Below the pieces are notes generated by a model. The model did not search any database and had not been told where the DNA came from. It saw only the letters and a list, made by a program, of their open reading frames with translations. A stretch of DNA of 64,000 nucleotides from Chloroflexota bacterium (GTDB lineage: Bacteria > Chloroflexota > Anaerolineae > UBA4142 > SHND01). Positions within the stretch are counted from its first letter, which is position 1, and each line of letters begins with the position of its first letter. The translations under genes were made by a program, and so were the position numbers. Of this stretch, positions 55,883 to 64,000 are shown piece after piece. The stretch spans positions 1 through 64,000 of the forward strand of contig JACQWQ010000119.1 of the NCBI GenBank assembly GCA_016209205.1, in the 5' to 3' direction.

Positions 55883-57250
55883 ATGGACGACACGAAAATC
55901 CTTTTGTCGGAAAAGGACTTGCCCAAAGCGTGGTACAACATTAATGCCGATATGCCCGTTCCGCCGCAGCCGGTGCTGCATCCGGGCACAATGGAGCCGG
56001 TAACCCCCGATTTCCTCGCCGTGCTCTTTCCGATGAATTTGATCCTGCAAGAAGTTTCCACCGACCGCTGGATCGAAATCCCCGAACCTGTCCGCGACAT
56101 TTATAAATTGTGGCGCCCCACGCCGATGCATCGCGCGCATCGTTTGGAAAAAGCGCTCGATACGCCCGCGCACATTTACTACAAATATGAAGGCGTCAGC
56201 CCGGTCGGTTCGCACAAGCCCAACACTGCCGTCGCACAGGCATTCTTTAACAAAGAAGCGGGCACCAAAGCGTTGACCACCGAAACCGGCGCGGGACAAT
56301 GGGGCAGCGCGCTGGCGATGGCGTGCAATTTCTTTGGGCTTGACCTCGAAGTCTACATGGTCAAGGTCTCGTATTTCCAAAAACCGTATCGCCGCATCAT
56401 CATGGAAAATTTTGGCGCGCAAGTGTACGCCAGCCCGACCGACCGCACGCAATACGGGCGCAGCGTCCTCGCCCAAGACCCCGATTCGCCCGGCTCGCTC
56501 GGCATCGCCATTTCCGAAGCGGTCGAAGTTGCCGCCACCTCCGGCGGCGCGAAAAAATATTCGCTCGGCTCGGTGCTCGGACACGTCTTGATGCACCAAA
56601 CCGTCGTCGGTCTGGAATCCTTGCAGCAAATGGAGCTCGCGGGCGAATATCCCGATATGGTCATCGGCTGCGCGGGCGGCGGTTCCAATTTTGCCGGTTT
56701 CGCGTATCCGTTCCTGTGGAAAAAATTCACCGAAGGCAAGAACGTGCGCGTCATTGCCGTCGAACCCGCGTCGTGTCCGAGCATGACAAAAGGGAAATAC
56801 ACATTCGACTATGGCGACACCGCCGCGATGGCGCCGATTGTCAAAATGTACACGCTCGGTCACACGTTCGTCCCGCCGGGGATTCACGCGGGCGGTCTGC
56901 GTTATCACGGCATGTCGCCCAGCGTCAGCGCATTGGTGGACCACGGCGACATCGAAGCGCGCGCAGTGCCGCAAGTAGCAACCTTTGACGCAGCGGTGCA
57001 ATTCTCGCGCGCCGAGGGTATCATTCCCGCGCCGGAATCCGCGCACGCGATTCGCGTCGCCATTGACGAAGCGCTCAACTGTAAAGAGCGTGGCGAGAAA
57101 AAGGTGATCTGCTTTAACCTCAGTGGTCACGGTCACTTTGATATGACCGCTTATGAATCGTACCTTCACGGCAAACTCGAAGATTACGCGTATCCACAAG
57201 CCGCCATCGAAGAGGCGATGACCCACTTGCCGCAAGTGGCGTTCGCCTGA
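55883..57250 (+). CDS. trpB2: TrpB2-type tryptophan synthase beta-like PLP enzyme
   Basis: The 455-residue protein has the long N-terminus and motifs of TrpB2: [17 protein letters not shown], the PLP lysine K112 in [20 protein letters not shown] with the catalytic Glu, and the phosphate-binding CAGGGSNF. TrpB2 enzymes make tryptophan from indole; archaeal TrpB2 has been reported to prefer O-phosphoserine over serine (established knowledge, not shown here). No trpA is adjacent. The genes that follow can make O-phosphoserine, which fits that preference. It is preceded by a long leader. Confidence 0.9.
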
Positions 57251-57252
57251 AA

Positions 57253-57372
57253 GTGACGGGTGACGGGTGGCGGCGACGCATCATCACACATGATGTTCGA
57301 GACACGCGTGGTGTGTGATGATGCGTCGGAGTGACGGGGGAAAACCCCGTCACCCGTCACTCGTCACCTTCC
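57253..57372. repeat. GTGACGGGTGACGGG repeats around a 16-bp inverted repeat
   Basis: GACGCATCATCACACA (57275-57290) pairs perfectly with 57312-57327. GTGACGGGTGACGGGTGG and its complement CCCGTCACCCGTCAC flank it on both sides. The same GTGACGGG words occur near 48909 and 15510. Confidence 0.75.
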
Positions 57373-57379
57373 CCCTTAC

Positions 57380-58465
57380 ATGAACCTGCGCATTGTGGGA
57401 CCTACGCCGCTCCCGCCTGCCGTCTGCGAAGCGCTCGCGCGCCCGATGATCAATCATCGCGGTCCCGAATTCGCGGCAATGCAAGCGCGCATCGTCAACT
57501 CGCTCAAAACGTACTTTCAAACCGCACACGAAATACTCCTCTTTACCTGCTCTGGCACCGGCGGCTTGGAAGCAGCGGTGGTCAATCTCCTCTCGCCGGG
57601 CGATACGGTCGTGGCGGTTTCCATCGGCGTCTTTGGCGACCGCTTTGCCGAAATCGCAGAACTATTTGGCGCGCAGGTGCACCGCTTGCGCTTTGCGTGG
57701 GGCAGCGCGGCGGACCCGGACGCCCTGCGCGCCAAACTGGACGAACTCGCCAACGTGCGCGCGGTTTTGATTACACACAATGAAACTTCAACCGCGACGA
57801 CGAATCCGCTGCAAGAACTGGCGCGCGCGGTGCATGAAAGATCGGACGCGCTGCTCGTCGTGGATGCGATCAGTTCGCTCGGCGCGATCCATTTGCCGGT
57901 GGACGAATGGGGCGTGGATGTCGCAGTAACGGGGTCACAAAAGGTGTGGATGATTCCGCCGGGGCTGGCGATGCTCAGCGTCGGACCGCGCGCGTGGGAA
58001 GCGTACGCGCGCGCCAAGATGCCGCGTTTTTATTGGGATTTCAAAAAAATGCGCGACGCGATGGCGAAAGGGCAAACGGCGTTTACGCCGGGCGTGAATT
58101 TGTATTTCGGACTCGACGTCGCGTTAGAACTGATGAACGCGGAAGGTTTTGAAAACATTCGCGCGCGGCACGCGCGTGTCGCGCAGCATACGCGTGATTG
58201 CGCGCAAGCGCAAGGGTTTGAATTGTTTGCCAATCAAGCGTTCGCGTCCAACACGGTCACGGCGTTGAAAATTCCACCGGGTGTGGACGGTAAAAAATGG
58301 CGCGAAGTTTTGCGCAAAGAACACGACACGGTCATCGCGGGCGGACAAAAAGAATTGACGGACAAAATCGTACGCATTGGACATCTCGGTTGGGTCAACG
58401 AAGCGGACATTGACGCGTGTCTCCACGCCATGACCGCCGCATTGGTGTACGTGCGAGCGAGTTGA
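57380..58465 (+). CDS. Class V aminotransferase (phosphoserine/serine-glyoxylate type)
   Basis: The 361-residue PLP enzyme has the class V pattern: GPTPLPPAVCEALARPMINHRGPEF at the start, TCSGTGGLEAAVVNLLSPGD, VVDAISSLGAI and the PLP lysine K188 in TGSQKVWM. Family members include alanine-glyoxylate and serine-glyoxylate aminotransferases and archaeal-type phosphoserine aminotransferase. Its position before serA favours transamination of 3-phosphohydroxypyruvate to O-phosphoserine; this is inferred. No Shine-Dalgarno sequence is evident. Confidence 0.85.
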   Translation: MNLRIVGPTPLPPAVCEALARPMINHRGPEFAAMQARIVNSLKTYFQTAHEILLFTCSGTGGLEAAVVNLLSPGDTVVAVSIGVFGDRFAEIAELFGAQVHRLRFAWGSAADPDALRAKLDELANVRAVLITHNETSTATTNPLQELARAVHERSDALLVVDAISSLGAIHLPVDEWGVDVAVTGSQKVWMIPPGLAMLSVGPRAWEAYARAKMPRFYWDFKKMRDAMAKGQTAFTPGVNLYFGLDVALELMNAEGFENIRARHARVAQHTRDCAQAQGFELFANQAFASNTVTALKIPPGVDGKKWREVLRKEHDTVIAGGQKELTDKIVRIGHLGWVNEADIDACLHAMTAALVYVRAS

Positions 58466-58471
58466 ATTCCG

Positions 58472-58587
58472 TTGTCATTTCGAACCACTGCTGCGAGCGA
58501 AGCGTGGCAGGCTCCGTGAGAAATCTCTCTTGGCAAAACCGAGATTTCGCCGACGAACTGCGTCGGAGCATCCGCTCGAAATGACGA
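58472..58587. repeat. TGTCATTTCGA / GAGAAATCTC dispersed repeat
   Basis: TTGTCATTTCGAACC at the left and GCTCGAAATGACGAA at the right face each other, with GAGAAATCTC and GAGATTTCGCCGACGAA inside. It fills the gap between the aminotransferase and serA genes and is related to 15-136. Confidence 0.7.
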
Positions 58588-58597
58588 ATGTAAAATC

Positions 58598-59608
58598 ATG
58601 TATTCCATACTCATTGCCGATCCCATCGCGCTGGAAGGCGTACGTATTCTCGAACGCGCGGGCAGAGTGCGCGCAGACGAGACGATTACGGCGGACGCGC
58701 TGCGCGACGCGATTTCCAATTACGACGCGCTCGTGGTACGCAGCCGCACCAAGGTGACCGCGCAAATCATTGACGCGGCGAAACGTTTGCGCGTCATCGG
58801 GCGCGCGGGCGTGGGACTGGACAACATTGACGTGGACGCGGCGAAAAAACGCAACATCACCGTCGTCAACGCGCCGTACAGCGTCACCATTTCCGTCGCC
58901 GAACACACGTTAGGGTTGATGATTGCGCTCGCGCGATTTGTGCCGCAAGCGGACGCGTCGTTGCGACGCGGCGAGTGGACGAAAAATAAATTCATGGGCA
59001 TCGAGCTGCAAGGCAAAACGCTCGGCATTGTCGGTTTGGGCCGCATCGGCTCGACCGTTGCGCCGCGCGCGATTTCGATGGGCATGCGCGTGTTCGCCTA
59101 CGATCCGTACATCACGCGCGCCCGCGCGCTCAATTTTGGCGCGGCGCTCATGGATTCGCTCGACGAATTGCTGGCGGCAAGTGATTTTGTTTCCATTCAT
59201 ACGCCGCTCTTGCCCACTACGCGCGGGCTGTTTAGCGATTCCGAATTTGCCCAAATGAAGCCCGACGCGCGTTTGATATTTTGTGCGCGCGGCGGTGTGG
59301 TGGACGAGGCCGCTTTGCTGCGCGCGCTCGAAAGCGGCAAACTCGCGGGCGCGGCGCTCGACGTTTTTGAAACCGAACCGCCGGGGCAGAATCCGCTTTT
59401 GCAGCACCCGCGTGTGATTGCGACGCCGCACCTCGGCGCGATGACGCACGAGGCGCAAACCAAAGCTGCCGTCGAGGTCGCCGCGCAAGTCATCGCGATC
59501 TTGAGCCGAACTGCTGGTCTGGAGGTAAACAGGGATACAGGTAAACAGGGAAACAAGGAAACAGGTATACAGGGAAACATCGCGCAACCTGCCTACCTGT
59601 CTACTTGA
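58598..59608 (+). CDS. serA: D-3-phosphoglycerate dehydrogenase, short form
   Basis: The 336-residue protein is a D-isomer-specific 2-hydroxyacid dehydrogenase: VGLDNIDVDAAKKRNI, the NAD motif GIVGLGRIGS (near 144), and the catalytic Arg (CARGGVVDE), Glu (DVFETEPP) and His (H278 in TPHLGAM). The short form lacks an ACT regulatory domain. It makes 3-phosphohydroxypyruvate, which the aminotransferase can convert to O-phosphoserine. The last 25 residues (from about NRDTGKQGNKETG) are read from a short-unit repeat tract and are not part of the normal fold. Confidence 0.9.
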   Translation: MYSILIADPIALEGVRILERAGRVRADETITADALRDAISNYDALVVRSRTKVTAQIIDAAKRLRVIGRAGVGLDNIDVDAAKKRNITVVNAPYSVTISVAEHTLGLMIALARFVPQADASLRRGEWTKNKFMGIELQGKTLGIVGLGRIGSTVAPRAISMGMRVFAYDPYITRARALNFGAALMDSLDELLAASDFVSIHTPLLPTTRGLFSDSEFAQMKPDARLIFCARGGVVDEAALLRALESGKLAGAALDVFETEPPGQNPLLQHPRVIATPHLGAMTHEAQTKAAVEVAAQVIAILSRTAGLEVNRDTGKQGNKETGIQGNIAQPAYLST

Positions 59609-59660
59609 CTACCTGTCTACCTGTCTACTTGACTACCTGACTACCTGTCTACCTGTCTTT
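59528..59660. repeat. ACAGGTAAACAGGGAAAC / CTACCTGTCTAC short-unit tract
   Basis: Direct units AACAGGGAAACA(A/T)GG run to 59580, followed by CTACCTGTCTACTTGA units to about 59658, which are their complements. The left half lies inside serA, including its stop codon; the right half abuts the next gene start. The family recurs at 63764-63803. Confidence 0.8.
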
Positions 59661-59665
59661 TGACC

Positions 59666-60505
59666 ATGGACCCCGCCGAACTTGATCTCCGTATTGTGCC
59701 GCTGCATCGTGTACTGCTGCACGAAGGACATGACCCGCACGGCGTCGCGCGCATGGTGATGGCGCTCGAGCATGATGGAATGCTCCGCCATCCGCCCATC
59801 GTCACCCAACTCGACACAGACCCGGACGAGCCATTGTACGTCGTTCTCGACGGCGCGACGCGCACGACCGCACTGCGCAAAATGGGCAGCCGCGATATTT
59901 TGGTACAGGTCGTAGATTACGCGTCGCCGCACGTGAGTTTGAGTGCGTGGAATCATCTCTTGCAAGGCATCGCGCCGGAAGATTTACTCGCACAGATTCA
60001 CAATGTCCCCGGCGCGCACGTCGTCGAAACGGATACACATCATGCCGACGCCGCGCTGGCGGTGCGCCAATTGCTTTGCTATTTCATTCTGCGCGATCAC
60101 TCGGTATGGGGCGTGCGCGCCGACGGCGACCTTGCCGCGCAGACGGAAGTTTTGAATCAGGTTGTGAATGTGTATCGCGGGCACGCGGAATTGTTTCGCG
60201 TGGTGACGACGCAGCTGGATTTATTGCTGCACGAATATCCCGAAATGATGGCGCTGGTGGTGTTTCCGCGTTACTCGCCCGCCGAAGTTCTGCACCTCGC
60301 GCTCAGCAACGCCAAAGTGCCCATGGGCATTACGCGGCATCTCATCGGCGGGCGCGTGCTGAATGTAACAGTCGCTTTGGAAACGTTAATGTCCGACGAG
60401 CCGCTCGCCCAGAAAAACGCGTGCTTGCAGGATTGGTTGAGGCAAAAGGTTCACGCGCGCAAAGTGCGCTTTTATGGCGAGCCGCTGTTTGTGATTGAAG
60501 AGTGA
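59666..60505 (+). CDS. ParB/Srx-fold protein, SerK/SbnI-like (probable free serine kinase)
   Basis: The 279-residue protein has a ParB/sulfiredoxin-like N-terminal domain: LHRVLLHEGHDPHGVARMVMAL with E20, HPPIV, and YVVLDGATRTTALRKMG with DGATR at 62-66. In the free serine kinases SerK and SbnI a Glu near this position and a DG(H/N)HR-type motif are used in catalysis (established knowledge). There is no helix-turn-helix DNA-binding domain as in true ParB. The C-terminal half resembles the second domain of SbnI. Context (serA, aminotransferase, TrpB2) favours interconversion of serine and O-phosphoserine. Annotated relatives are often called ParB; a partition role is unlikely here. Confidence 0.72.
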   Translation: MDPAELDLRIVPLHRVLLHEGHDPHGVARMVMALEHDGMLRHPPIVTQLDTDPDEPLYVVLDGATRTTALRKMGSRDILVQVVDYASPHVSLSAWNHLLQGIAPEDLLAQIHNVPGAHVVETDTHHADAALAVRQLLCYFILRDHSVWGVRADGDLAAQTEVLNQVVNVYRGHAELFRVVTTQLDLLLHEYPEMMALVVFPRYSPAEVLHLALSNAKVPMGITRHLIGGRVLNVTVALETLMSDEPLAQKNACLQDWLRQKVHARKVRFYGEPLFVIEE

Positions 60506-60554: not shown

Positions 60555-62519
60555 ATGAATCAAAAAGTTGTACTGGGAAATGAAGCGTTGGCGCGCGGGC
60601 TGGTGGAAGCGGGCGTGCAAGTCGTCACGGGGTATCCCGGCACGCCGAGTTCGGAAATTATTCCGGGCGTCATTGCGTGGAAAAAACAGCTCGCGCTCAA
60701 CACCTACGTCGAATGGTCGGTGAACGAAAAAGTCGCGCTGGAAGTGGCGCTCGCCGCAAGTTGGGCGGGCAAACGCGCAGCGGTGACGATGAAGCAAGTC
60801 GGGCTGAATGTGGCGAGCGATCCGTTATTGAGCGCGGCGTACACCGGCGTCGTCGGCGGATTCGTGTTGATCGTGTGCGACGACCCCGGTCCGTATTCTT
60901 CGCAAACCGAACAAGATACGCGCTTGTTTGCGCTGTTTGCCAAAGTCCCCGTCCTCGATCCCGCGACGCCGCGTCAGGCAAAAGCAATGGTGCGCGCCGC
61001 GTTCGAACTTTCGGAAAAATTTCGCATCCCCGTCATCGTGCGCTCTTCGCTGCGCGTTTCCCACGCGCGGCAAAACATTTCGCTCGACCCGCTCGATACG
61101 ACGCACCGCGCGGCGAACTTTCATAAAGACCCCGCGCGCTGGGCAGCCACGCCGCGCTATCGTCTGTTGCTGCACAAAGAGCTGGTTGACAAGCTCGCAA
61201 GAATTGAAAACGAGTTCGAAACGTCGGGATTGAATTTGGAAATTAGAAATTCAAAATTAGAAATTCAAAATTCGGAGAATGAACAATCGAAAATCGAAAA
61301 TCGAAAATCGAAAATTCCTCTGGGGATTTTAGGCGCGGGTGTGCCGTGCGCGACGGCGCAAGAATTGTTGGACGAGTTCGGCGTCGAGATTCCGATTCTG
61401 CAAATTGGCACGGTGTACCCGCTGCCGCAAAAACGCGTGAATGAATTTCTGGCGCGCTGTGAACGGGTGTTGGTGTTGGAAGAACCCGACGCGGCAATGG
61501 AAATCCAAATCAACGATCGGCGCAAGGTGCACGGGCGGCTCGACCACACGATTCCGAACGCGGGAGAATTGTCGCCCGATGTCTTGCAGCCGATTCTGGC
61601 GCGTTTGCTGCGCGAAGCGAGTTTGATTTCTGACGCGACGGAAAGCGCGTTGCCCGCGTGGGGCGCGGCGCTGCAAAATTTACAATTGCCGATGCGGGGT
61701 CCGCGCCTCTGTCCCGGATGCAGCCATCGTTCCGCGTTTTACGTGATTCGCCGCACGTTCCCCGGCGCGTTTTACGCCAGCGACATTGGCTGTTACACGC
61801 TCGGCACAAATCTGCGCGCGGTGGATACCTGTCTCGACATGGGCGCGGCGATTACGATTGCGAGCGGCATGTATCAGGCATATCGCCTCGATAAAAAACC
61901 AAAAAGCATCGTCGCGACGATTGGCGATTCGACGTTCATTCATTCCGGGGTCACGGGCTTGGCGAATGCCGTGCACACGGGCGCGCGTTTTGTGCTGGTG
62001 ATTCTCGACAACGCGACGACGGCAATGACGGGCTTTCAACCGACTGCCGACCAAACGCGTCTCGCCGACGACGCGGAAGGCACCCGCGTCGGCATTCCCG
62101 ATTTGGTGCGCGCGTGCGGCGTAAAATTTTTGCAGCAAGCCGACCCGTACGCGCAGGATGAATTTGAAAAAATTCTCAAGCAAGCCGAAGCGTTCACGCA
62201 TGCGCCCGACGGGGGCATCGCGGTGGTGATTGCCGAACGCCCCTGTGTGTTGAATGATCGTACGCCAATTGACGAACATCCCGTGCGCGTGGAAGTGACC
62301 GACGAGTGCGACGGCTGCAAGTATTGTCTCGTCGCGTTCGAATGCCCCGCGCTCGTGATGAATGTGAAAACCAACAAGGTCGAAATCAACCGCCAAACGT
62401 GCGTGGACTGTGGGCAGTGCATTGACGCGTGCTACAAAGGTTTCATCGTCGAGTCCAAACCATTAACGATTCTCGAACTCGCGGAAAAAGTGGGAAGGGA
62501 AAATGGACGCGTGGCGTGA
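60555..62519 (+). CDS. iorA: Indolepyruvate:ferredoxin oxidoreductase, alpha subunit
   Basis: The 654-residue protein has the pyrimidine-binding domain (GNEALARGLVEAGVQVVTGYPGTPSSEI), a transketolase C-terminal-like part, the TPP-binding domain (GDSTFIHSG, LDNATTAMTGFQ) and two [4Fe-4S] ferredoxin motifs at the end (CDGCKYCLVAFECP; CVDCGQCIDACYKG). It decarboxylates aryl-pyruvates and passes electrons to ferredoxin, with IorB. ATG 60555 is preferred; the longer frame runs through the hairpin repeat. About 30 residues from 226 (NLEIRNSKLEIQNSE and following) are encoded by a short-unit repeat inserted between domains, still in frame. Confidence 0.92.
   Translation: MNQKVVLGNEALARGLVEAGVQVVTGYPGTPSSEIIPGVIAWKKQLALNTYVEWSVNEKVALEVALAASWAGKRAAVTMKQVGLNVASDPLLSAAYTGVVGGFVLIVCDDPGPYSSQTEQDTRLFALFAKVPVLDPATPRQAKAMVRAAFELSEKFRIPVIVRSSLRVSHARQNISLDPLDTTHRAANFHKDPARWAATPRYRLLLHKELVDKLARIENEFETSGLNLEIRNSKLEIQNSENEQSKIENRKSKIPLGILGAGVPCATAQELLDEFGVEIPILQIGTVYPLPQKRVNEFLARCERVLVLEEPDAAMEIQINDRRKVHGRLDHTIPNAGELSPDVLQPILARLLREASLISDATESALPAWGAALQNLQLPMRGPRLCPGCSHRSAFYVIRRTFPGAFYASDIGCYTLGTNLRAVDTCLDMGAAITIASGMYQAYRLDKKPKSIVATIGDSTFIHSGVTGLANAVHTGARFVLVILDNATTAMTGFQPTADQTRLADDAEGTRVGIPDLVRACGVKFLQQADPYAQDEFEKILKQAEAFTHAPDGGIAVVIAERPCVLNDRTPIDEHPVRVEVTDECDGCKYCLVAFECPALVMNVKTNKVEINRQTCVDCGQCIDACYKGFIVESKPLTILELAEKVGRENGRVA
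61232..61318. repeat. In-frame short-unit repeat within iorA
   Basis: Units AAATTAGAAATTCAA and AATCGAAAATCGAA repeat over 87 bases. Related words in reverse orientation lie at 6384-6432. The tract keeps the iorA frame and has no stop codon. Confidence 0.85.
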
Positions 62520-62583
62520 GACGTGAAGCGTCAAACGTCAAACGTCATGCGCGATAAGCGATTTGCGATATGCGATACGCGAT
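62519..62583. repeat. GTCAAACGT and GCGATA tracts across the iorA-iorB junction
   Basis: ACGTGAAGCGTCAAACGTC units are followed by GCGATAAGCGATTTGCGATATGCGATACGCG, which includes the iorB start codon and its first five codons. Confidence 0.8.
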
Positions 62584-63184
62584 TCTTTTAGCAGGCATCG
62601 GCGGACAGGGCGTTTTGTTCGCGCACAATGTTTTGGCGGAATGCGCGCTGGCGCAAGGACTGAATGTGACCGGCGCAGAAACGCACGGCATGAGTCAGCG
62701 CGGCGGCTCGGTGGTTTCGCATTTGAAAATCGGCGATACCTCCGCGCCGATGATTCGGCAAGCAACGGCGGATTTTGTAATTGCATTCGACGCGGCGGAA
62801 GCGTACCGCGCGCTGCCCTTTTTGAAACGCGGCGGCGCACTCGTCGTCAATGCCGCGCCCGAAAATTTTCCCGACGCGCAGGTGCAGCCGCACCTCGACG
62901 CGTGGAACATCACCGTTCGCGCGTGTGACGCCGACGCCATTGCGCGTAATTTGGAACGCGCGTCGGCGGCGAATGTGGCGCTGCTCGGCTTCGCGACGAC
63001 GTGCGAAAATTTTCCATTTACCGCCGACGCCTTGCGCGCCTCCATCGCCCGCGTCGCCCATCCGCGTTTTGTCGCGTTGAATGAAAAGGCGTTTGAGGCG
63101 GGGATACAAATTGGAAATTTGAAGTTGGAAGTTAGAGATTGGAATCCAACTTCCAACCTCCAACTTCCAACCTCCAAACCATGA
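62570..63184 (+). CDS. iorB: Indolepyruvate:ferredoxin oxidoreductase, beta subunit
   Basis: The 204-residue protein has the gamma-type oxidoreductase domain: AGIGGQGVLFAHNVLAECALAQGLNVTGAETHGMSQRGGSVVSHLKIG. It pairs with IorA. The ATG lies within the GCGATA repeat tract, and the last 24 residues (GNLKLEVRDWNPTSNLQLP...) are encoded by the repeat at 63107-63180. The stop codon overlaps the next start codon (ATGA). Confidence 0.92.
   Translation: MRYAILLAGIGGQGVLFAHNVLAECALAQGLNVTGAETHGMSQRGGSVVSHLKIGDTSAPMIRQATADFVIAFDAAEAYRALPFLKRGGALVVNAAPENFPDAQVQPHLDAWNITVRACDADAIARNLERASAANVALLGFATTCENFPFTADALRASIARVAHPRFVALNEKAFEAGIQIGNLKLEVRDWNPTSNLQLPTSKP
63107..63180. repeat. TTGGAAGTT / CCAACTTCC tract at the iorB 3' end
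   Basis: Units TTGGAAATTTGAAGTTGGAAG are followed by CCAACTTCCAACCTCC, their complement, giving a long potential hairpin. It encodes the IorB tail and ends right at the next ATG. Confidence 0.8.
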
Positions 63185-64000
63185 AACCTTTTGATTTTTT
63201 TTCGCCCCCGACCCTCGCTGAAGCATCCCGCATTCTCGCCGACTATGACGGCGCAGGGCGCGCGCTCGCGGGCGGCACCGACTTGCTGATTCGCATGAAA
63301 CGCAAACAGTGGACGCCGCGCGCGGTCGTGAGTTTGAATCGCATCGTGGGGTTAAATGACATTGCATTAAACGGCGAACTGCGACTCGGCGCGCGTGTGA
63401 CGTTGAATCAAATCATTCGTTCGCCGCTCATCTGCGCGCATTTTCCCGTTCTCGCCGCGACAGCGCGCATGATGGCGGGCGTGCAGGTGCGCGCACTCGC
63501 AACGGTCGGTGGCAATTTGTGCAACGCGTCGCCGTCCGCCGACATGGCGCCGCCGCTGATGGCATTAAACGCACGCGCCGTAATTGCGGGCGTTGACGGC
63601 GAACGCATTGTGCCGCTCGACGAATTTTTCATCGGACCGGGCAAATCGGTGCTCCAACCCGGCGAAATTTTGCGCGAGCTCCTGATTCCGTGTCCCACCC
63701 ATTCTTTTCAGGCGTCGTACGCGAAACTTGAGCATCGTCAAGCAATGGACATTGCAATGGTGGGGGTAGGGGTATACACGGAAACAGGTAGACAGGGAAA
63801 TGGCGAAGTGCCAATCTGTGTTGATGTCAAGATTGTGCTGGGCGCCGTCGCGCCGACGCCGCTGCGCGCCAAACGCGCCGAAGAAATTTTGCGCGGGTAC
63901 GGGTTGAGTGTGGAACGCATCGAACACGCGGCGCGTGTCGCGGCGGAAGAAGCGAAGCCGATTGACGATGTGCGCAGCAGCGCGTGGTATCGCCGCGAAA
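63181..64000 (+). CDS. FAD-binding subunit of a molybdo-hydroxylase (CoxM/XdhB type), partial
   Basis: The gene runs off the end of the window after about 273 residues. It has the FAD motifs LAGGTDLLIRMK and TVGGNLCNASPSADMAPPL and the later LGAVAPTPLRAKRAEE of the xanthine dehydrogenase/CO dehydrogenase medium-subunit family, which carries electrons from the iron-sulfur subunit to an acceptor. The large and iron-sulfur subunits probably follow beyond 64000. A repeat-derived stretch (VYTETGRQGNG, near residues 196-206) replaces a loop between MDIAMVGVG and CVDVKIVLG. The start overlaps the iorB stop codon, so the gene is translationally coupled. Confidence 0.88.
   Translation, partial: MKPFDFFSPPTLAEASRILADYDGAGRALAGGTDLLIRMKRKQWTPRAVVSLNRIVGLNDIALNGELRLGARVTLNQIIRSPLICAHFPVLAATARMMAGVQVRALATVGGNLCNASPSADMAPPLMALNARAVIAGVDGERIVPLDEFFIGPGKSVLQPGEILRELLIPCPTHSFQASYAKLEHRQAMDIAMVGVGVYTETGRQGNGEVPICVDVKIVLGAVAPTPLRAKRAEEILRGYGLSVERIEHAARVAAEEAKPIDDVRSSAWYRRE
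63764..63803. repeat. In-frame short-unit repeat in the FAD-subunit gene
   Basis: GGGGTATACACGGAAACAGGTAGACAGGGAAA shares the GGAAACAGGTA and ACAGGGAAA words with the tract at 59528-59580. It keeps the reading frame. Confidence 0.7.

Follow-up and report, generated by a model that had tools for sequence, protein, structure and literature searches.

Why should a tryptophan synthase beta gene of the TrpB2 kind stand at the head of a row of putative genes for making O-phosphoserine (OPS), just in front of the genes for indolepyruvate:ferredoxin oxidoreductase (IorAB), in a genome that holds a full trp operon elsewhere? The question is posed by a 64,000-nucleotide stretch of DNA from an uncultured member of the Anaerolineae, Chloroflexota (assembly GCA_016209205.1, contig JACQWQ010000119.1, positions 1 to 64,000, referred to here as the window), in which four plus-strand genes follow one another at 55883-60505: TrpB2 (55883..57250), a class V aminotransferase (57380..58465), SerA (58598..59608) and a gene related to the free serine kinases SbnI and SerK (59666..60505), separated by 129, 132 and 57 bases. 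That the four lie in a row with no SerB or TrpA nearby was noted in the initial annotation and was confirmed by their coordinates and by genome-wide searches, in which the sole TrpA match fell on another contig (C48) and the three serB matches, all weak and under the cut-off, on contigs other than that of the window. The answer that we favour, with a probability of about one half, is that the four genes supply OPS and capture indole at the front of a cluster for the anaerobic degradation of indole compounds. These Anaerolineae would capture free indole anaerobically by spending OPS, made from serine by the SbnI-like kinase or from 3-phosphoglycerate by SerA and the aminotransferase, and tryptophan would be a catabolic intermediate.

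TrpB2 and its predicted substrate

The product of the first gene is of the TrpB2 type, as had been claimed for it, scoring 635 bits on TIGR01415 (cut-off 519) and 725 bits on NF009057 (cut-off 366) compared to 154 bits on the TrpB1 model, far under the cut-off of 392; its closest solved chains are 6hul and 4qys. Arg is found in all 50 TrpB2 rows (two or more of which are repeat copies of one gene) where the TrpB1 of the window's own genome has Asp, further supporting this assignment. The Asp of TrpB1 contacts the serine hydroxyl, and the residue at this position reportedly sets the use of OPS by TrpB2 (Busch et al. 2014), of which chain 4qys is reported to be the OPS complex. On these features, OPS-dependent tryptophan synthesis is predicted for the TrpB2 of the window.

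Two proposed, exchangeable suppliers of OPS beside TrpB2

Neighbours of SbnI-like domains were counted by phmmer on stop-to-stop segments (greedy gene models, which often picked antisense open reading frames (ORFs), were not used) in a pool of 171 different domains of more than 200 residues, 126 from a search of the class and 45 from a genome scan only. The TrpB2-linked group provided the query of that scan, which inflates the share of TrpB2 in the pooled counts; and since contig ends hide neighbours in what are mostly metagenome assemblies, the counts of neighbours present are minimum values. Because a same-strand TrpB2 lies within 6.5 kb of 19 of the 126 class-search domains (the window's included), the adjacency is not a matter of chance; in the whole pool the figure is 31 of 171.

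Which genes accompany this pair varies. TrpB2, aminotransferase, SerA, SbnI-like gene and IorA occur together in 4/171 (the window, L053 (= L231), L055 (= L232) and L234), and TrpB2, SbnI-like gene and IorA without SerA and aminotransferase in 14/171 (for example L056, L058, L059, L062, L066 and L069). The complementary arrangement is found in a congener (L207), where TrpB2, aminotransferase, SerA, IorA, IorB and a molybdenum hydroxylase stand in order, the first five proteins being 82-90% identical to those of the window, with no kinase remnant in the cluster and no kinase gene found in its genome (79% complete). Among 20 other TrpB2 loci (one per family, taken among the matches listed and leaving out TrpB2 genes beside a kinase gene), six have TrpB2, aminotransferase and SerA in a row. 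Because SerA plus aminotransferase and the kinase-like gene replace each other beside TrpB2, OPS appears to be what TrpB2 needs; this swap, seen at the level of gene content, is the strongest argument for that need and makes it well supported. The proposal of the initial annotation that the cluster supplies OPS to TrpB2 is thus borne out by comparison, OPS-making genes repeatedly adjoining TrpB2; its expectation that the four genes would be neighbours in relatives holds for the four loci with IorA just named, but the arrangement without SerA and aminotransferase is commoner.

Quick trees were made without bootstrap. In the SbnI-like tree the 19 rows linked to TrpB2 group in a single clade of 24 (SH-aLRT 93; the placement of L069, on a long branch, is unsure), and in the TrpB2 tree, four rows of which were labelled by hand from a longer copy of the same locus, adjacency to the kinase gene takes 6 changes (18/56 rows) and adjacency to SerA plus aminotransferase 9 changes (10/56).

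The two genes between TrpB2 and the SbnI-like gene make up the other proposed supplier. The aminotransferase matches Pfam Aminotran_5 (PF00266), with BhcA as its best NCBIfam model (299 bits, cut-off 650), and is proposed to form phosphoserine. SerA consists of the substrate and NAD domains only, without the ACT and intervening domains (TIGR01327 413 bits, cut-off 454), and holds Arg231, Glu260 and His278, which we take to be the catalytic residues of this 3-phosphoglycerate dehydrogenase core. The locus does not encode a complete phosphorylated serine pathway, SerA and aminotransferase standing there without a SerB-type phosphatase. In the stretch 59500-59666 short repeats encode the C-terminal tail of SerA; weak matches to this tail were also found upstream of a second kinase-like copy in the same genome (L033).

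An indoleacetate-type gene cluster follows

On the same strand behind the four genes lie IorA (60555..62519; TIGR03336 620 bits, slightly below the cut-off of 651), IorB (62570..63184; at most 143 bits on IorB models, under their cut-offs, and 119 bits on PF01558, above cut-off) and the CoxM-like FAD subunit of a molybdenum hydroxylase (63181..64000), which continues beyond the window on its contig (C36; locus L200). There it is followed by CoxS (63984), CoxL (65319; the large subunit, with 4-hydroxybenzoyl-CoA reductase alpha as its top match, below cut-off), a HisC-like gene (67879), a methylmalonyl-CoA-epimerase-like gene (69352), a CoA-transferase in two ORFs (69847-70886), an acyl-CoA dehydrogenase (70984), two SDRs (73781 and 74642) and two thiolase-like genes (75519 and 76878). 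IorA adjoins TrpB2 and the kinase-like gene in 18/171. We regard TrpB2 and IorAB as one unit because IorA follows in these 18 of the 31 TrpB2-linked cases, and molybdenum hydroxylase and iaa-like genes come after it where enough flank is covered.

One relative is L059 (= L240), with mutase, CaiB, HyuA/B, V4R, TrpB2, SbnI-like gene, IorAB, CoxMSL, CaiB, HisC-like gene and acyl-CoA dehydrogenase; L062 (= L241) has the same content minus the first CaiB match. The front genes of L059 encode a B12 mutase, a CoA-transferase, a caprolactamase-like lactamase pair and a V4R/XylR_N protein. The window's genome has relatives of the L059 lactamase alpha (59%, truncated at a contig end) and lactamase beta (73%), 6.4 kb apart on contig C135, and on a 3.5-kb contig a relative of the L059 B12 mutase (71%). 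In the described iaa pathway for anaerobic indoleacetate breakdown, the IaaF dehydrogenases carry GGG instead of YEG (PMC8360864), and a Hyd-type lactamase has been placed in indoleacetate metabolism (PMC5214803). The acyl-CoA dehydrogenase on the window's contig reads YGGGTGE, and GGG was present in 4/4 cluster acyl-CoA dehydrogenases with the C-terminus covered (the window's contig, L233, L240 and L241); those of L236 and L243 are cut off before the C-terminus, and YEG is found in an acyl-CoA dehydrogenase that lies upstream in L247. By homology, therefore, the content of the cluster matches the anaerobic indoleacetate (iaa) pathway, and the larger cluster probably breaks down indole compounds without oxygen. 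The initial annotation had remarked that IorAB fits an aromatic amino acid theme; IorAB does belong with the cluster, but as the apparent entry to an iaa-type catabolic part and not as a side remark.

We propose that OPS would be made by SerA and the class V aminotransferase from 3-phosphoglycerate, or by the SbnI-like kinase from serine and a nucleotide, and would serve TrpB2 as an activated alanyl donor, indole and OPS giving tryptophan and phosphate. Tryptophan could then be converted to indolepyruvate by the HisC-like enzyme, or by the class V aminotransferase with phosphohydroxypyruvate as acceptor, in which case the same reaction would regenerate OPS. IorAB would turn indolepyruvate into indoleacetyl-CoA, CO2 and reduced ferredoxin, and molybdenum hydroxylase, lactamase, CoA-transferase, B12 mutase, epimerase, GGG dehydrogenase and thiolase would lead on to anthraniloyl-CoA and acetyl-CoA, as in iaa of Aromatoleum. 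On a carbon count that we infer, the alanyl handle would be repaid as CO2, acetyl-CoA and reduced ferredoxin, because the serine carbons would exit as CO2 and acetyl-CoA, and the cost would be the phosphate of OPS. In this scheme, for which indole as entry substrate and breakdown as direction are read from gene content, the tryptophan formed is likely to be a catabolic step in the use of indole, not a building block.

Tryptophan for translation, or serine assimilation?

The initial annotation instead read the locus as making tryptophan, or a related beta-substituted amino acid, from OPS without free serine, and in that case TrpB2 would serve tryptophan salvage or biosynthesis for protein synthesis, with IorAB in a neighbouring unit. 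One indication of this is the tryptophanyl-tRNA synthetase gene TrpS: among the 31 TrpB2-linked domains 18 also have IorA, 10 have TrpS instead and 3 have neither, and among the 19 from the class search 9 have IorA and 9 TrpS. (A looser pool of 181 domains, including short pieces and a fragment of the window's gene, gave the same 31, 18, 10 and 3, and the same 4 for the full five-gene set.) The ten TrpS cases fit tryptophan salvage for translation and so weigh against the catabolic reading; the TrpS-linked subtype may be anabolic. The second SbnI-like copy of the window's genome, in L033, likewise adjoins TrpS (302 bits, above cut-off), and in the six sampled loci with TrpB2, aminotransferase and SerA in a row no IorA was found in the stretch covered.

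Against salvage stands the frequency with which IorA and, where the flank suffices, the molybdenum hydroxylase and iaa-like genes follow, and the genome is already provided for. Contig C48 carries a trpEGDCFBA run in which trpE (548 bits), trpG (184), trpD (417), trpC (320), TrpB1 (631) and TrpA (262) are all above their cut-offs and trpF (202) is slightly under its cut-off of 215; because of this run, with its TrpB1 and TrpA, TrpB2 is not the sole tryptophan synthase of the genome. A full-length SerA (617 bits, above cut-off) adjoins a histidine phosphatase (L198:6665-9117) that scores 163 bits on PspA, a phosphoserine phosphatase (cut-off 350), and 164 on alpha-ribazole phosphatase (cut-off 163), and judged by their adjacency the two are a candidate for the main serine route. 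The idea that tryptophan is made here in order to do without free serine is left unsupported by these genes. A serB in a complete serine operon elsewhere, together with TrpB1, had been named as telling against it; TrpB1 and the SerA with its histidine phosphatase are present, but no serB match above cut-off was found genome-wide. SerB is in any case unusable as a contrast, being above cut-off in 4/298 genomes of the class with weaker matches of the same superfamily in 279/298. On balance we consider salvage unlikely as the role of the window's genes.

Alternatively, the kinase, aminotransferase and SerA may assimilate serine, taking it via OPS and phosphohydroxypyruvate to 3-phosphoglycerate, with TrpB2 and IorAB as catabolic neighbours. 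The genes near serK in Desulfurococcales include SerA and aminotransferase genes and were interpreted in this way (PMC5120207). In the Anaerolineae, where an SbnI-like match was found in 125/298 genomes, 35 of 129 domains (counting those in which more than 200 positions of the model are matched, apart from the copy in the window) are fused behind a SerA domain, some with an aminotransferase in front. Energetics also favour the assimilating direction. Within 3.5 kb on the same strand, TrpB2 was found for 17 of the 129 domains and IorA for 9. Serine assimilation would leave TrpB2 unexplained, together with the kinase and TrpB2 without SerA and aminotransferase in 14 of the 18 IorA clusters, and it would equally leave unexplained the rows of TrpB2, aminotransferase and SerA without a kinase; we find it doubtful for the window.

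The fusions themselves are of two kinds, and the 35 SerA-fused rows fall in a clade of 40 (SH-aLRT 99). Two-domain SerA-SbnI-like proteins (L034-L036, L038-L040, L042, L043, L046-L048 and others), some of them encoded behind a class V aminotransferase gene, mostly keep the presumed catalytic residues of SerA (Arg in 21, Glu in 22 and His in 24 of 27), and it is possible that they are a self-contained OPS node or a serine-assimilation enzyme. Eight longer fusions of one family, in frames of about 905-940 amino acids (L045, L049, L050, L052, L123, L126, L128, L129), have an extra N-terminal part and have lost the SerA Arg in 8/8; in L052, the one scanned of the eight, the extra domain is a threonine/serine dehydratase-like pyridoxal phosphate (PLP) domain.

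Other settings were also seen. In L089, L093, L106, L111 and L113 the SbnI-like gene is near cystathionine beta-synthase/cysteine synthase-like, ThiS-like or FeS_assembly_P-like genes (one representative of each was scanned), and these neighbourhoods are perhaps for OPS-dependent cysteine synthesis; in L138, L139, L140 and L151, one family, it is followed by genes for an ACT_7-domain protein, a small unknown protein and a JAB-domain protein. The genome scan with the SbnI-like query gave 76 loci. Those with TrpB2 adjoining the kinase-like gene were all titled Chloroflexota; in a few ANGP1/Armatimonadetes loci TrpB2 lies about 6-9 kb from the SbnI-like gene, and at Ignavibacteria, Kapaibacterium, Eisenbacteria and other loci the queried partners were not found in the flanks covered, which were often short.

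The SbnI-like protein as a candidate kinase

The protein has 279 residues, the ATG at 59666 being taken as its start (the listed ORF opens at a TTG at 59660). Among solved structures SbnI (5uje; E 1e-14) is the nearest to it in sequence, aligned across most of its length, and an AlphaFold2 model from an 82-row alignment had a mean pLDDT of 95.8. Foldseek placed among its top nine PDB matches three SbnI entries, five SerK entries and one Pyrococcus protein without a functional name, with E values of 1e-18 to 4e-15 to SbnI and SerK and TM scores (normalised by target) of 0.77-0.82, covering the full two-domain fold. Thirteen residues (H19, E20, P43, D62, G63, R66, W95, H97, R178, P219, G221, R224 and R230) were unvarying in 129/129 relatives and the same in SbnI. 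These include the catalytic Glu, E20, which corresponds to E30 of SerK by alignment offset only, the alignment beginning after E30; PDB titles record the SerK mutants E30A and E30Q. Judging from the model and these residues, kinase activity is likely. The earlier assignment of this ParB-like protein to the SerK/SbnI kind thus stands as regards the full fold and the catalytic Glu, but not as regards the equivalog cut-offs, which are missed, or the His of the DGxHR motif, which is replaced.

Several other identities were considered. A canonical ParB was ruled out by the missing ParB_N match in a Pfam scan and by a likeness confined to one domain, the first ParB-family protein in Foldseek (Noc) reaching a TM score of 0.35 over 85 columns, and a defence gene was ruled out since PADLOC gave no match. 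A kinase run backwards as a phosphoserine phosphatase, considered because the genome has no serB match above cut-off, was set aside because phosphate esters are energetically poor donors for making ATP or ADP, and because the histidine phosphatase that adjoins the full-length SerA could fill this role. The ParB-fold protein might also sense nucleotides or otherwise regulate the cluster instead of acting as a kinase, as the NCBIfam title for SbnI (bifunctional transcriptional regulator/O-phospho-L-serine synthase) would allow and as other ParB-fold proteins that act as switches suggest (PMC12704722). The Pfam scan found no DNA-binding domain, the residues in common with SbnI are invariant and the domain is covalently joined to SerA in 35/129, so that a purely regulatory role seems very unlikely. 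Least likely of all is flow in the reductive direction, with IorAB and aminotransferases building tryptophan from indoleacetate, a use that anaerobes make of IorAB, and TrpB2 as a parallel indole salvage, given the GGG dehydrogenase, molybdenum hydroxylase, lactamase and mutase genes of the cluster, which point to breakdown.

Points that weigh against indole capture

The reading of the four genes as the front end of indole degradation has to carry a number of observations that weigh against it. As regards the kinase, the SbnI-like protein scores 82 bits on the NCBIfam SbnI model (cut-off 350) and 31 on SerK (cut-off 380), both equivalog cut-offs being missed (a relative in L076 scores 80); the DGxHR His of SbnI and SerK is replaced in 82/82 rows (Thr in 40, Asn in 37, Ser in 5); Gly at position 26 is unique to the window's copy, with Arg there in 77/82; and an archaeal protein resembling SerK was found to bind CTP and not ATP (PMC12704722). 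As regards the association, for 71 of the 129 SbnI-like domains no member of the six queried families lies within 3.5 kb, and TrpB2, above cut-off in 220/298 genomes of the class, is far commoner than its pairing with the kinase-like gene (19/126 class-search domains). As regards the pathway, the lactamase and mutase genes lie off the window's contig, and the family III CoA-transferase for the IaaL role, a single open frame in L059, is represented on C36 by two partial ORFs (L200:9848-10887) with model positions 154-213 unmatched; this may be a pseudogene or an assembly error, so that the pathway may be broken here. Known anaerobic indole breakdown runs by oxindole and isatin (PMC6221969), and TrpB2 would be superfluous in a cluster that dealt with tryptophan or indoleacetate alone, although its presence there could have some other cause.

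Significance and comparison with known systems

The mechanism of anaerobic indole degradation was called a black box in a 2018 review (PMC6221969), and a gene cluster that names each step would make it testable. If indole capture by OPS is correct, it would add a second anaerobic indole route to the one by oxindole and isatin, extend the bacterial use of free serine kinases beyond siderophore synthesis and give TrpB2 a clear metabolic role; it would also explain a so far unassigned bacterial ParB-fold family, present in 125 of the 298 class genomes, as phosphoserine makers, and would show one metabolite being supplied by two exchangeable modules. Among open-licence papers, searched by titles and abstract openings, no publication was found on TrpB2 with a serine kinase or on SerA-SbnI fusions.

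With the TrpB2 reported to be OPS-dependent (Busch et al. 2014), the TrpB2 of the window has in common a TIGR01415 score above cut-off and the Arg at the substrate position; it differs in lying in a probably catabolic cluster of a genome with a full trp operon. SbnI, the free serine kinase of staphyloferrin B synthesis, is alike across the whole fold (TM normalised by target 0.78-0.82) and in Glu20, D62, G63, R66, W95, H97 and R178, whereas identity is 22-24%, Thr replaces the His of DGxHR and the partners here are TrpB2 and SerA. SerK, the ADP-dependent serine kinase of Thermococcus, again agrees in fold (0.77-0.82) and, in Desulfurococcales, in its reported SerA and aminotransferase neighbours, but identity is 18% and the part of the source at hand gives no TrpB2 linkage for SerK (PMC5120207). 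The iaa cluster of Aromatoleum aromaticum has the GGG acyl-CoA dehydrogenase (PMC8360864) in common with the cluster described here, and probably also the Hyd-type lactamase (PMC5214803), the CoA-transferase and the B12 mutase (PMC8360864), genes for all three of which stand in the cluster in L059 and L062. Here IorAB would itself make the CoA ester, rendering the ligase IaaB unnecessary (a ligase was not searched for). A molybdenum hydroxylase step is also part of iaa. In contrast to iaa, the cluster described here is headed by TrpB2 with its suppliers of OPS.

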